A stretch of DNA of 64,000 nucleotides from Desulfomarina profundi (GTDB lineage Bacteria; Desulfobacterota; Desulfobulbia; Desulfobulbales; Desulfocapsaceae): positions 2,624,501-2,688,500 of the forward strand of contig NZ_AP024086.1 of NCBI RefSeq assembly GCF_019703855.1, read 5' to 3'. Position 1 is the first letter of the stretch, and every line of letters starts with the position of its first letter. Under the pieces are notes generated by a model. The model saw nothing but the letters and a program-made list of their open reading frames with translations. It had not been told where the DNA came from and did no database searches. Made by a program: the position numbers and the translations under genes. Below are positions 38,705 to 46,121 of this stretch, piece by piece.

Positions 38705-38708
38705 ATGT

Positions 38709-40099
38709 TCACTTTTCAGGAAAAATCTTACCCGGATTCAGAACCAGGTTGGGATCAAACAGCTTCTTGATCTTCTTCTGCAGGGTAATGGAAGCCTCGG
38801 ACAACTCCATGGCGAGAAATGGGCTTTTGGCAATACCGATACCATGCTCTCCGGATATTGTCCCGTTAAGCCCCAGCGTCAGTTCCAGCAGGGCTCTTGT
38901 TCCTTCATGAACACGGGTTTCACTGGTCATCTTTCTGCTGGTAATGTTAAGATGGATATTGCCGTCTCCCGCATGACCGAAGGCAAATACCTCCATACCG
39001 TATTTTTTTTCATATTCAGGCAGGGCGTCCACAAGGGTCGCGATATTGCTCAACGGGACCACGATATCTTCCGGTATGTACAATTCCGCATAGTCATGAA
39101 TACGCAGGCTGACCTGACGTCGGACTGACCAGATCTCCTCCCTCTCCTTTGAATCCACAGCTTTGATAAATTCTGTGGCGCCGTTTTTTCTTGCGATCCT
39201 GCAGAGTTCTTCAATTTCTTTTTCAATCTGTTTTTCCGGGCCGTCTATTTCTATGATGAGCAGAGATGGTTGTTTCCCGGAAGGAGAAAAGGGCAGCAAC
39301 TCACCGATCAATCTGAGACACTTATGATCAAGAAATTCCAGGGCACTCGGCAGATGCCCCTTTTTCATAATGGCTGCAACGCCATTCATGGCAGACACCA
39401 TATCACTGAAAACACACATCATGGTTTTCAGTGCCGGTGGTCTGGCAAGGAGTTTCAGGGTAAGCGATGTAATAATACCAAGTGTCCCCTCACTGCCGAT
39501 CAACAGATTTGTAAGATCATACCCCACCACTCCCTTCCTTGTTTCCACACCTGTTGAAATAAACTGTCCATTGGGCAACACTGCCTCGAGTCCAAGGATA
39601 TAATCGCGGGTTGTGCCGTATTTCAGGCAGGATGGCCCCCCGCATCCGTGGCTCCATTTCCGCCAATGGTGCTCTGATCCATTCCAGCCGGGTCCGGCGG
39701 ATAGAAGAGACCGGCGGCTTCAGCCGCCTCACGCACCTTCAAACTGATAACACCTGCGCCAACCTTCATGATAAAATTTCCGGTATCGATCCGCTCAATC
39801 CGGTCAAGGCCCATGGTAGACAACACCACTCCACCCCGGGACGGCAGGCAGCCTCCCGCCAGTCCCGATCCGCCACCACGGGGAGTCACAGGGAAATTAT
39901 ACCTGTTCGCCAGTTCTATCAGCGATTTGATATCATCAGTATTTCCTGCCAGAACGACAAGTTCCGGCAGGTAACTGAGTGTGGAGGCATCAGAGGAATA
40001 TTCGACCAGGTTCCCCCTATCGACAATGGACGAATCCGGACTGAGTCCGTCAGCAATAATTGCTTTCAGTTCCGCAGTGAGGGGAGAATAGGAAACCAT
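38709..40099 (-). pseudogene. GlcD-like FAD-linked oxidase, frameshifted
   Basis: D-2-hydroxyacid dehydrogenase (glycolate/D-lactate type) in two frames. The N-terminal part (40099 to about 39640) has the FAD-binding motif TPRGGGSGLAGGCLPSRGG and STIGGNGATDAGG. The C-terminal part (to 38709) continues CLKYGTTRDYILGLEAVLPN and ends GTISGEHGIGIAKSPFL with the FAD-oxidase C domain. The break is at a run of six C on the plus strand (39636-39641); one more base would restore LGNNATDAGGPSCLKY-type sequence. Either a sequencing error or a real frameshift; everything else is intact. Confidence 0.85.
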
Positions 40100-43114: not shown

Positions 43115-43476
43115 CATTTTCCCCTTAGTTGTAATGACTGCCCGAGAAAAATCTCCCGAGCTGATGGAATATTTTTTGTTTCTGAAACCATTGCATACTA
43201 TTTTTCTCTCCAATACAGTGATACAGCCTATCTTGTTTTCTCTTCCTTTTCCATATTTTTGTTTATCTGATACTTGTCCAGAAATGAGATTTTTGGTTCA
43301 AGTTCAGGTAAGCGTAAACTCCGAGGAGCATAGAACAATAAAAAAGACCATTTGTGGACAGGTACTGCCCAAAAACCTTCCCGGATTTCCAATGCCTCTA
43401 TTTCGTATCTTGACTTCAAACAGAATTTACATATTGTATTAGTCATTACTCATATAAATACTTACTGATAAGGATT

Positions 43477-43800
43477 ATGACAAAATTAGCACAGTTTATA
43501 AAAGTTCTTGGTGATGCCAATCGACTGGCAATTATCCATGCCATTGGTGAATCAACCCGCTCAGTCACCGAAATTATAGCAGAAACAGGCCTGTCACAGA
43601 CTCTTGTCTCTTTCCACCTGCGGGTAATGCGGGAAAAAAGTGTGGTAACAACACAACGGGATGGCCCATTTATTTTTTACAGCCTTTCAACCCCTGAACT
43701 TTATGGCCTGATTGGTGAACTTGCCCGAGTTGCCGGAATAGAGAGTGCCATCGGCAAACCAATATCATCTTCAGTAAAAGTCAATCAGAACAGGAGTTAA
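43477..43800 (+). CDS. ArsR-family transcriptional regulator
   Basis: 107-residue winged-helix regulator. KVLGDANRLAIIHAI and SVTEIIAETGLSQTLVSFHL form the ArsR helix-turn-helix. No cysteine pair for metal sensing (no ELCVCDL-like box), so it is probably not an arsenic or zinc sensor. It heads a tight rightward set with two small proteins, a winged-helix protein and the DUF5714 selenoprotein. Confidence 0.85.
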   Translation: MTKLAQFIKVLGDANRLAIIHAIGESTRSVTEIIAETGLSQTLVSFHLRVMREKSVVTTQRDGPFIFYSLSTPELYGLIGELARVAGIESAIGKPISSSVKVNQNRS

Positions 43801-43802
43801 TC

Positions 43803-44042
43803 ATGTGGTGGAATAATGGTGGATGGGGACCGATGTATGGTATGTGGTTTATGCCTGTTTTCGGTCTGCTGTGTATGTTGATATTATTTTATGTGGTTTT
43901 ACGGATCGTAAATCGTGAGCGGGAATTATTCAACAGAATAGATCCTCATATCAACCAGAAACAGGATGAACTGCTCAAAGAGATAAAAGCACTCCGAAAT
44001 GAAGTTGAAGAATTGCATAAAAAACAAAAAAAGGATCATTAA
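43803..44042 (+). CDS. Small membrane protein with coiled-coil tail
   Basis: 79 residues. The N-terminus is Trp/Gly/Met-rich (MWWNNGGWGPMYGMWFMPVF), leading into one membrane helix to about residue 36 and a charged coiled coil (LLKEIKALRNEVEELHKK). Similar small proteins accompany redox or metal-resistance genes, but no family function is known. Two bases after the ArsR-type gene. Confidence 0.65.
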   Translation: MWWNNGGWGPMYGMWFMPVFGLLCMLILFYVVLRIVNRERELFNRIDPHINQKQDELLKEIKALRNEVEELHKKQKKDH

Positions 44043-44046
44043 CACA

Positions 44047-44205
44047 GTGGAAAAATTAAATATTTCTCAAAAGAAAGCTCTTCTGGACAGCCTGCTCAGT
44101 TCACTGATGGCTGATATAAGCTGCGATGATCGGCAACAATTGCTGCATGATATTCTCCTGAAGAACAAAGAATCCCGACCGGTTATTGAAATGGTTGAAT
44201 ACTGA
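44047..44205 (+). CDS. Small conserved-looking hypothetical protein
   Basis: 52 residues, helical (EKLNISQKKALLDSLLSSLM, DDRQQLLHDILLKN). I chose GTG 44047, four bases after the preceding stop; the frame is open further upstream inside that gene. AAGGAT lies some distance ahead. Family not recognised. Confidence 0.5.
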   Translation: MEKLNISQKKALLDSLLSSLMADISCDDRQQLLHDILLKNKESRPVIEMVEY

Positions 44206-44229
44206 ATCAACGAATGTACTGATTCAGGT

Positions 44230-44535
44230 GTGAATCCCGTTGAAATGAGCAGAGAAGTCCTCGCCGCAATAAGTCACAGTTATGAACTGGCTCCATATGC
44301 CACTCACGAATTACGGGGTCTTTTTAACGATTGGCTTGGGGAAATTGAACTGCGGGTTATAGATTTTGTCAACCAACGCAATCGGGTTGACCCACAGGAA
44401 TTATCTTCCCATTTTAAATTAACCAGGGAATCCATTATTTTTGTGCTGGGAAAACTCGAGCGGGAAGGCAAGATCACCACGAATACCAGAAAGAAATCAA
44501 CAACCAGTTTACGATTACTGAAAAGAGGAGAATAA
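44230..44535 (+). CDS. Winged-helix DNA-binding protein
   Basis: 101 residues. The C-terminal half is a winged helix (VDPQELSSHFKLTRESIIFV, LGKLEREGKITTNTR). The N-terminal helices may dimerise. It starts at GTG 44230 after AGG; ATG 44245 is possible. Its stop overlaps the DUF5714 start (TAATG). Likely co-regulates this set. Confidence 0.65.
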   Translation: MNPVEMSREVLAAISHSYELAPYATHELRGLFNDWLGEIELRVIDFVNQRNRVDPQELSSHFKLTRESIIFVLGKLEREGKITTNTRKKSTTSLRLLKRGE

Positions 44536-45488
44536 TGGACAATATATTTACATCGGCACAGACATCGAAAGAGAATTGTTGAGGTTCAAACGATGACGGT
44601 CGTCATCCTGAAAAAGCTACACAGCAGGTACATTTTTCTGAAAGAAACAATGAGAACTGCATGGTCTGTGGCTCCCATCTCCAATACCATACCCAGCCGG
44701 TGGAAGGCCATTGTCATTATTGTAACAGTGAGAATAAATGGTATATCTCCTGTTCCAAAGGCCACATGGTTTGCGATTCCTGCCATAATCAACAGACAAT
44801 GCAGCAAATCAAGACCATACTTATGAAATCAACGTCAACTGATCCATTTGCAATTTCCGAACACTGCATGGATCTCCCCATTCTGCCAATGCTTGGTTGC
44901 CAGCATACATATATAGCGGGTGGAGCATTAATGACTGCCCTGAAAAATGAAGGCACATTTGATCTTACGAATGACGCTGTTCTCGAAGTCTTCCACCGAA
45001 CGGAAAAACAAGCTCATGGTGGCTATTGTGGTCTGACGGGAACCTGCGGAATAGCCCCTTCATTGGGTGCCTGTATGGCAATACTTACCGGGTCCAGATG
45101 TGGTCGTGACAAAGAGCAGAAACTCACCATGGAACTTGTCTCCAGGGTAATGGGGGCAATTACGAAACTCACGGGCCCAAGCTGTTGCAAAGCATATGTT
45201 CGAATATCGCTGGCAGTTGCTGTCGATTTTATCCAACAACATTTTTCACTTTTACTGCCAGGAAACGACTCTCCCACCTGCCGGCACATGGAAAATCACC
45301 CCCATGGCTGCAGGCAGGAGAAATGCCCGTATTTCCCTTTAAATTCGATTGAAAAAAACAAAAACCCAATTGCCCCGACGCCTCTCTGGCCGCGGGTTAT
45401 AAGCCCTGAACCAGACATTGCCTGGCAGTTGCAAGAGAGAATAAAACATCTGATGCAGAGCTTTCTGAAGCTATGCAGGTTGCAATGA
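44535..45488 (+). CDS. DUF5714 protein, predicted selenoprotein (UGA = Sec16)
   Basis: 317 residues if the TGA at 44580-44582 is selenocysteine. GAGGAG precedes ATG 44535 at good distance; after TSAQTSKENC comes Sec16, then GSNDDGRHPEKATQQVHFSE. The DUF5714 body then follows in the same frame with cysteine motifs NCMVCGSHLQ, GHCHYCNSENKW, CSKGHMVCDSCHNQQ and the C-rich GLTGTCGIAPSLGA and GPSCCKAYV. Ordinary gene calling would start at ATG 44661 and lose the Cys15-Sec16 pair. A 6-bp hairpin with a GGTC loop starts nine bases after the UGA. Many Cys suggest metal or redox chemistry; the function of DUF5714 is unknown. Confidence 0.75.
44583..44607 (+). promoter_or_regulatory. SECIS-like hairpin with GGTC loop
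   Basis: GATGAC (44592-44597), loop GGTC (44598-44601), GTCATC (44602-44607): a perfect 6-bp stem nine bases after the in-frame UGA. The loop bases GGUC match those of the E. coli fdhF SECIS recognised by SelB, and the loop distance (16-19 bases) fits bacterial elements. Confidence 0.7.
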
Positions 45489-45535
45489 CAGTGGTAGCAA
45501 CGAAAAATCAGGTTGAATAACATCAAGCTCATCAG

Positions 45536-45572
45536 ATATGAGATACCTTGCGAGAGGGCATATCTCATTTTA
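45536..45572 (+). terminator. Rho-independent terminator after the DUF5714 gene
   Basis: ATGAGATA (45538-45545) pairs with TATCTCAT (45561-45568), with CC/GG inside, followed by TTTTATA. It ends the rightward set and reaches the stop of the convergent hydrolase gene. Confidence 0.6.
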
Positions 45573-46121
45573 TAGTGACTTGATAAATACATCCGTTTTT
45601 ACAACTTCTGCATAAACCATTTTAAGTGCAGCAAGAAATGATGCATGAACATGAGAGGCAGGAATTTCAACACCTTGAAATTCAAGTGATCGTGCGGCAC
45701 AGGCATCACCCAGGACAACTACATCAAAACCCAGATCATATGCAGCTCTGGCTGTTGCGTCGATGCACATAAATGTCATCATTCCCGCTATTACTACCCT
45801 TTCAACACCAATAGAATGGAGTTCCTGCTCAAGATCAGTTTCACGAAAGCTGTTTGGAAAATGCTTGAGAACAGTCTTTTCCCCCTTCACCGGTGTTACA
45901 GAATTATGAATCTCAGCACCATGTGTACCGGGCTGGAAAAAACCGCTACGCCCGTTAAGACTTTCATGACGGACATGAATAACGGGTATTTTCTTTTCTC
46001 GGAATTTTTTCATAACTTTTGCTGCATTATCTGCCGATACTTCAGCTCCATTTTGCTCAAATTTTCCACCTGGGAAATAATCATTTTGAATATCTACCAA
46101 TATCAGGGCTGTCTTTTTCAT
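45570..46121 (-). CDS. Cysteine hydrolase, isochorismatase-like
   Basis: 183 residues. Catalytic triad candidates are Asp in ILVDIQNDYF, Lys in EKTVLKHFPNSF and the nucleophile Cys in AGMMTFMCIDATARAA. HVRHESLNGRSGFFQPGTHG is typical of nicotinamidase/isochorismatase-type enzymes; substrate unknown. ATG 46121 follows AAGGAG; the frame is open 29 codons upstream. Divergent from the GlxA-like regulator, which probably controls it. Confidence 0.85.
   Translation of the reverse strand: MKKTALILVDIQNDYFPGGKFEQNGAEVSADNAAKVMKKFREKKIPVIHVRHESLNGRSGFFQPGTHGAEIHNSVTPVKGEKTVLKHFPNSFRETDLEQELHSIGVERVVIAGMMTFMCIDATARAAYDLGFDVVVLGDACAARSLEFQGVEIPASHVHASFLAALKMVYAEVVKTDVFIKSL

Follow-up and report, generated by a model that had tools for sequence, protein, structure and literature searches.

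A probable selenocysteine codon in a short MbdU-type DUF5714 gene of Desulfomarina profundi

Results

In a 64,000-nucleotide stretch of the Desulfomarina profundi genome (contig NZ_AP024086.1; the window hereafter), we found a DUF5714 gene (44535-45488, plus strand) whose single in-frame TGA is, by comparison with homologues, very likely read as selenocysteine, giving a Cys-Sec protein. The predicted product is a short, single-Sec form of the known MbdU family and, judged by its profile match, not the first DUF5714 selenoprotein. Its apparent difference from MbdU lies in the short single-Sec form and in its partner gene. The genome consists of one contig of 4.31 Mb. The start codon ATG (44535-44537) is preceded by the ribosome-binding site AGAGGAGA and overlaps by one base the TAA of the upstream frame (44533-44535), so that ribosome-binding site and TAATG stop/start overlap together occupy 44524-44535 (plus strand). 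Codon 16 (44580-44582, plus strand), directly after Asn14-Cys15, is the only TGA in the frame, which then stays open to the stop TGA at 45486-45488. With TGA 44580 read as Sec16 the product has 317 residues. Pfam DUF5714 (PF18978) matches residues 92-267 with 162.7 bits. The initial annotation had described the frame in these terms, from ATG 44535 through one TGA after Asn-Cys into DUF5714, and direct reading of the sequence bears it out.

Homologues were collected from three sources: a contig scan (five loci), a set of 193 genomes of relatives (L024-L038, 270-405 bits) and a draw of 395 genomes from the phylum (L074-L086, 249-359 bits). In all three, N-termini were read by script from the loci returned. 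After removal of the duplicates L037, L074 and L075, 30 strong stand-alone loci remained, our own included. L023, L083 and L084 were left out because their contigs end before the N-terminus. TGA stands at the aligned place in 26 of the 27 readable loci, again counting our own; in the exception, L079, the 90 residues that precede the match contain no TGA and no Cys pair. Sec is preceded by Cys in 23 of the 26 rows and by Gly in two (L029 and L033), and in L085 (1471) the order is Sec-Cys. An ATG is found upstream of the TGA at 24 of the 26 loci; the contig of L028 ends first, and no ATG, GTG or TTG was found upstream of the TGA in L086. L019 and L020 are near-copies. The nearest relative, L021, has the same sequence as L037 of G043, an uncultured member of the Desulfobulbaceae in the same family. 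A weaker stand-alone homologue, L040, carries no Cys/Sec motif.

The longer homologues (L039 and L041-L053) all have Cys-Cys pairs near the Sec place (14 of 14), with NSCC[AS]P in five; there are often two or three such pairs, which makes the exact alignment of a pair ambiguous. The in-frame UGA is thus aligned with UGA or Cys in homologues, as is looked for in a selenoprotein gene, and the alignment shows a conserved motif upstream of residue 43, where the initial annotation had proposed to look for one. A tree of 40 rows splits at a branch supported 100/100 into 25 stand-alone Sec rows and 15 others (14 fused rows and L040), the labels being known beforehand; L038 of the Sec rows and L041 and L046 of the fused rows were left out by length and pattern rules. 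A tblastn search hit seven plasmid records, two of which were read. The best hit, 40% identical, is in Acetoanaerobium noterae (Clostridia; L127), a member of a different phylum. Its tail reads GGCUGP and is followed by a 5-bp hairpin (CTGCA-GGGG-TGCAG), and its frame is of the short form, stopping without a DUF2284 part. In the Selenomonas ruminantium homologue no such motif was found in the 50 codons before the match. The Acetoanaerobium noterae record (NZ_CP154629.1) is labelled a plasmid, has four features and is 2.63 Mb long, a size that could be that of a chromosome.

The substitution rate of the N-terminal tail was an uninformative to unfavourable test of recoding. Against L021 the nonsynonymous/synonymous ratio is 0.84 in the tail and 0.08 in the body. 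Over five pairs the tail gave 0.84, 0.51, 0.39, 0.60 and 0.60 and the body 0.08-0.30; four further pairs were not used because their synonymous count was saturated (0.0 printed). The tail evolves fast outside the Cys-Sec motif, and its conservation alone would therefore not carry the case.

A candidate bacterial SECIS element (44592-44607, plus strand) begins nine bases past TGA 44580. The hairpin GATGAC-GGTC-GTCATC has a perfect 6-bp stem, as the initial annotation had noted, and it is the only one of its kind in the window: among the 2,656 TGA triplets of the two strands, TGA 44580 alone has a GGTC loop that begins 9-31 bases downstream on a stem of six Watson-Crick pairs or more. Stems of 6 bp with any loop follow 50 of the 2,656 triplets, so it is the loop and its conservation that carry weight and not the stem alone. 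In synonymous-codon draws for this site, made from the codon pool of the gene and the gene just upstream, a 6-bp hairpin arose in 1.2%. A search of the window for frames crossing one TGA followed by such a hairpin (at least 10 codons before the TGA and at least 60 after) returned two places only, TGA 44580 and TGA 44203 in the upstream gene.

Equivalent hairpins with compensatory changes are present in relatives. A hairpin in register follows 22 of the 26 homologue TGA sites, with four to eight pairs (only four in L032), a loop of four bases and the loop start 15-21 bases after the TGA; the loops are GGTC (18), AGTT (2), GGGC (1) and GATC (1). At L033, L082, L085 and L086 there was no hairpin in the register used, and these sites were left out of the pair count. 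Inner pairs were counted by script in a fixed register, since a MAFFT alignment of the 16-base hairpins inserted gaps. Across 20 unique rows, 99 of the 100 inner-pair cells (five per row) hold a standard pair, and every position shows three or four different pair types. When the 3' sides were shuffled, the mean was 55 standard pairs and the maximum 71, and none of 2,000 shuffles reached 99. The choice of the best stem favours pairing; a fairer control is synonymous resampling, where the stem could be placed about as freely, and in it a hairpin with such a loop arose in 0.04-2.3% of draws per homologue gene. When at least five Watson-Crick pairs without any G-U were demanded, the strict rule of that resampling, 17 of the 22 real sites remained, and L019, L020, L021, L032 and L035 dropped out. 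The paired inner positions and the rarity under synonymous resampling together show that the hairpin is not a by-product of the protein sequence. A bacterial SECIS element is expected to follow its UGA closely, to carry a G in its loop and to be conserved in structure; all three features were found here. Rfam gave three matches in 43400-45600, all far below their gathering scores.

The genome also encodes the machinery, for which the initial annotation had suggested a check of selA, selB, selC and selD; all four are present above curated cut-offs. The scores are 74.9 bits for tRNA-Sec (selC), 364.5 bits for SelB, 634.6 bits for SelA, and 370 and 342 bits for two SelD genes. Since control genomes also give matches below cut-off (all 14 of them for tRNA-Sec, SelB and SelD; 4 of the 14 for SelA), only matches above cut-off were counted. 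With TGA in 26 of 27 loci, the hairpin at 22 of 26 and Cys-Cys pairs in all 14 longer homologues read, the initial proposal of a DUF5714 selenoprotein with a Cys-Sec pair gains support. Neither of the two outcomes that the initial annotation had named as speaking against it, homologues lacking conserved sequence before residue 43 and a genome lacking Sec insertion genes, was observed.

The novelty implied by that proposal did not hold. The NCBIfam model NF045648 (MbdU, metal-binding double selenoprotein) covers residues 11-275 of the product (profile positions 4-274 of 468) with 349 bits, below its cut-off of 600, and an excerpt of a 2026 review (PMC13188914) lists MbdU with the motif CU and two Sec and names the MbdU sequence WP_327229162.1; the same excerpt also lists TsoA, TsoB, TsoC, TsoX and TsoY, citing Haft and Tolstoy 2025. 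Likened by profile, Cys-Sec tail included, the product shares with MbdU the N-terminal CU motif and the DUF5714 core. It differs in that it scores below the cut-off, has one Sec instead of two and falls short of full length, lacking the C-terminal DUF2284. The identity of the missing part follows from a G006 protein that matches profile positions 282-467 and is PF10050 (DUF2284). All 26 members of the homologue alignment (A1) match NF045648 and no other family (E up to 1e-10). The model matches 105 of the 193 genomes of the relatives set, our own included (E up to 0.001), 14 of the 395 genomes drawn from the phylum (E up to 1e-70) and one of 14 control genomes (Methanosarcina acetivorans, below cut-off). 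No match reached 600 bits in the 193 or the 395 genomes. A literature search for DUF5714 found no paper in the limited library searched, one on the tso operon gave mostly papers on other subjects, and no DUF5714 protein is named in the available portion of the deep-Sep paper (PMC12013277).

DUF5714 also occurs in long fusions. In L056 (523-3735) and L057 (763-3900) a radical SAM part and an ArsM-like methyltransferase are joined to DUF5714 (PF18978) in proteins of 1,070 and 1,045 residues. These fusions share the domain with the short form and have Cys-Cys pairs near the Sec place; they differ from it in length (about 1,050 residues in the two whose entire sequence was scanned), in having Cys for Sec and in lying on the opposite side of the 100/100 branch. 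Many further NF045648 matches in the 193-genome set lie in frames of similar length to L056 and L057.

The short form is rich in conserved cysteines. Residues 42-83 hold Cys-x2-Cys and Cys-x2-Cys followed by Cys73, His77, Cys80 and Cys83, all invariant in 26 rows. Cys122, Cys165, Cys171 and Cys189 are also invariant, and Cys217, Cys218, Cys249, Cys259 and Cys264 are nearly so. The model of the whole protein has a mean pLDDT of 79, with the tail (residues 1-38) below 50 and disordered in the model; a model of the body only has a pLDDT of 89. Foldseek gave no confident relative (best E 0.64 for the whole model and 0.46 for the body model), and a PDB sequence search returned nothing under E 0.02. 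The best VIA match of the whole model was L-serine dehydratase (Z 4.7, rmsd 4.4, 132 aligned), which is not listed for the body model. An L-serine dehydratase alpha-type fold was dropped after A1 was compared with 28 SDH_alpha proteins by hhalign: the probability was 0.8%, the best stretch was 13 columns with a similar Gly/Cys motif, and a score as high came from one of 40 column-shuffled controls. With the body alignment (A3) the probability was 0.5%. At the C-terminus the product has a tail of about 50 residues (45339-45485 of the window) that is shorter or missing in the other aligned rows.

The gene just upstream (43999-44535, plus strand) appears to be a divergent TsoA with a second Sec-type TGA. 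It encodes 178 residues with TGA 44203 read as Sec (start codon uncertain), and this candidate Sec UGA codon (44203-44205, plus strand) lies in the motif YUINEC. A 6-bp SECIS-like hairpin, GATTCA-GGTG-TGAATC, follows at 44221-44236 (plus strand); a 6-bp hairpin arose there in 1.4% of synonymous draws. The TsoA model (NF045695) scores the protein at 87.8 bits, below its cut-off of 170, and the LULAxC motif is absent, with [YH]UIxxC in contrast to it. TsoA matches occur in 61 of the 193 genomes and form two groups, one of 167-225 bits and one of 81-93 bits. All nine places of the low group have one TGA inside, and at eight of them a strong MbdU-like match lies within 1 kb on the same contig. No strong MbdU-like match was found at the ninth (G111), which starts at base 145 of its contig. 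Conversely, eight of the 15 genomes of this set with a strong MbdU-like gene have a low-group TsoA partner and seven do not (G155, G178, G114, G104, G039, G071 and G043; the contig ends just upstream in G155 and G178). G043 holds the nearest relative (L021/L037), which is thus among those without the partner.

Further upstream are an ArsR/SmtB-type regulator (43477-43800, plus strand) and a small membrane-type protein of 79 residues (43803-44042, plus strand). The regulator is nearest to TsoR (NF045707) but does not reach that cut-off (73.6 bits against 115); it passes the broader ArsR/SmtB cut-off (metalloregulator subfamily, 70.7 bits, cut-off 55). L027 and L025 have a relative of the membrane-type protein ahead of their TsoA-like genes, and L027 has the ArsR-type regulator as well. 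In L019 (from 2181) and L020 (1443-1700) the HSGNPNU motif of TsoX comes directly after the short MbdU-like gene. The L020 protein, the only one of the pair scanned, matches TsoX with 129.9 bits (cut-off 52), which puts three selenoprotein genes in a row at that locus (TsoA-like, MbdU-like and TsoX). No HSGNP motif was found in the window. The likeness to the tso system (TsoA/TsoR/TsoX) thus consists of a TsoA-like gene with Sec, an ArsR-type regulator resembling TsoR and, in L019 and L020, the TsoX motif; the difference is in TsoA itself, at 88 bits against the cut-off of 170 and the 167-225 bits of the other TsoA matches in the set. Regulator, small membrane protein and two selenoprotein genes look like a tso-like selenoprotein operon.

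Chosen genes were scanned around five relatives. The MbdU-like gene of L060 is near an ArsR-type gene, an ArsP-type permease and an ArsE-family thioredoxin, and that of L066 is near an ArsM-like gene. Among the genes scanned, the other three relatives had only TsoR-like regulators and one CxxCxxCC zinc- or iron-chelating domain (L062).

Discussion

We consider it probable that Sec is inserted at UGA 44580 through SelB into a short MbdU relative whose Cys-Sec pair binds a soft metal or metalloid. Sec coding, the hairpin and the kinship with MbdU rest on comparison with homologues; the neighbour genes recur in part of the relatives. SelB with charged tRNA-Sec would recognise the hairpin nine bases past the UGA and so place Sec16 beside Cys15. 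The pair would sit in a flexible N-terminal tail ahead of a putative Cys4 zinc ribbon and a predicted helical DUF5714 domain with its many invariant cysteines. Regulator, small membrane protein, TsoA-like selenoprotein gene and short MbdU follow one another in one direction and would be transcribed together. The Cys-Sec pair may bind a metal or metalloid such as As(III) or Hg(II) and either hand it on to the DUF5714 core or shield the core from it. Metal(loid) handling appears to be the likeliest role. It is suggested by neighbours and names: the ArsR-type regulator, the ArsP permease, ArsE thioredoxin and ArsM-like neighbours in relatives, the ArsM-like fusions and the name MbdU.

Adjacent Cys and Sec could form a selenenylsulfide, and the pair might then be a redox centre that reduces disulfides, peroxides or oxidised metal species and is not a metal ligand. 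According to the abstract of PMC9312934, redox functions are assumed for most selenoprotein families of prokaryotes. Such a role is nevertheless somewhat unlikely: the motif stands in the low-pLDDT tail, two of the 26 rows have Gly-Sec instead of Cys-Sec, homologues with Cys have it as Cys-Cys pairs, frequently more than one, within ArsM-like fusions, and the regulator belongs to the ArsR type. The remaining alternatives concern Met43 (ATG 44661), an in-frame codon 81 bases 3' of where the UGA begins that would yield 275 residues. A protein started there scores 328 bits to MbdU against 349 from ATG 44535, a drop that indicates that the model covers the N-terminal tail. If UGA terminated translation at low selenium and an internal start at Met43 gave a Sec-free form, the element would mainly be a selenium-dependent switch. 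The in-frame ATG, the 275 residues and most of the MbdU score would be kept in that case, but the late start removes Cys42, the first Cys of the zinc-ribbon-like Cys-x2-Cys ... Cys-x2-Cys motif that is invariant in 26 aligned rows. A ribosome site before 44661 is not evident, and the place of Met43 is taken by Thr, Leu, Ser or Phe in L077, L078, L080, L082, L085 and L086, all of which makes two products improbable.

In a reading without recoding, TGA 44580 would end a frame of 15 codons and the DUF5714 gene would begin at Met43. This is how the ORF listing gives the gene (44661-45488, the default gene-caller reading), and the high nonsynonymous rate of the tail points the same way. It is hardly credible against a TGA and hairpins kept across two phyla, a complete Sec machinery and a zinc ribbon that the late start would break. 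Recoding at UGA 44580 is the reading we keep. The initial annotation had held that the N-terminal Cys-Sec extension would be lost in standard annotation, and it is plausible that the gene is cut short in this way, since its score is below the NF045648 cut-off. More generally, because only one NCBIfam model matches the short form, and does so below its cut-off, gene callers will probably place the start of such genes at Met43, losing the Sec and a probable zinc ligand.

Together with its neighbours the gene may belong to a second, unnamed type of tso operon that joins the short single-Sec MbdU to an ArsR regulator, a small membrane protein and a TsoA of divergent type ([YH]UIxxC), with TsoX added in some relatives. 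The two or three selenoproteins in a row would act in a joint selenium-dependent metalloid or organometallic pathway, and the short MbdU, found in this phylum and in a single clostridium, would form a separate family missed by the current model. We offer this tentatively, at a little under even confidence. Most of the strongly matching stand-alone DUF5714 genes in the genomes sampled turn out to be selenoprotein genes once the TGA is read. The Cys-Cys forms in arsenite-methyltransferase-like fusions are a concrete lead to what these selenoproteins handle.

Two minor observations concern other TGA codons. A readthrough candidate on the minus strand of the window (38706-40099), which we take from its translation to be glycolate-oxidase/D-lactate-dehydrogenase-like, was rejected as a Sec gene: it meets a TGA, but the remainder is in another frame (39623-40099 and 38709-39581), which indicates a frameshift. 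The two selD genes of this genome (L071 and L072, at C1:3598297-3599223 and C1:581421-582347 of G000) each have an in-frame TGA, and selenophosphate synthetase looks like a selenoprotein here twice over.
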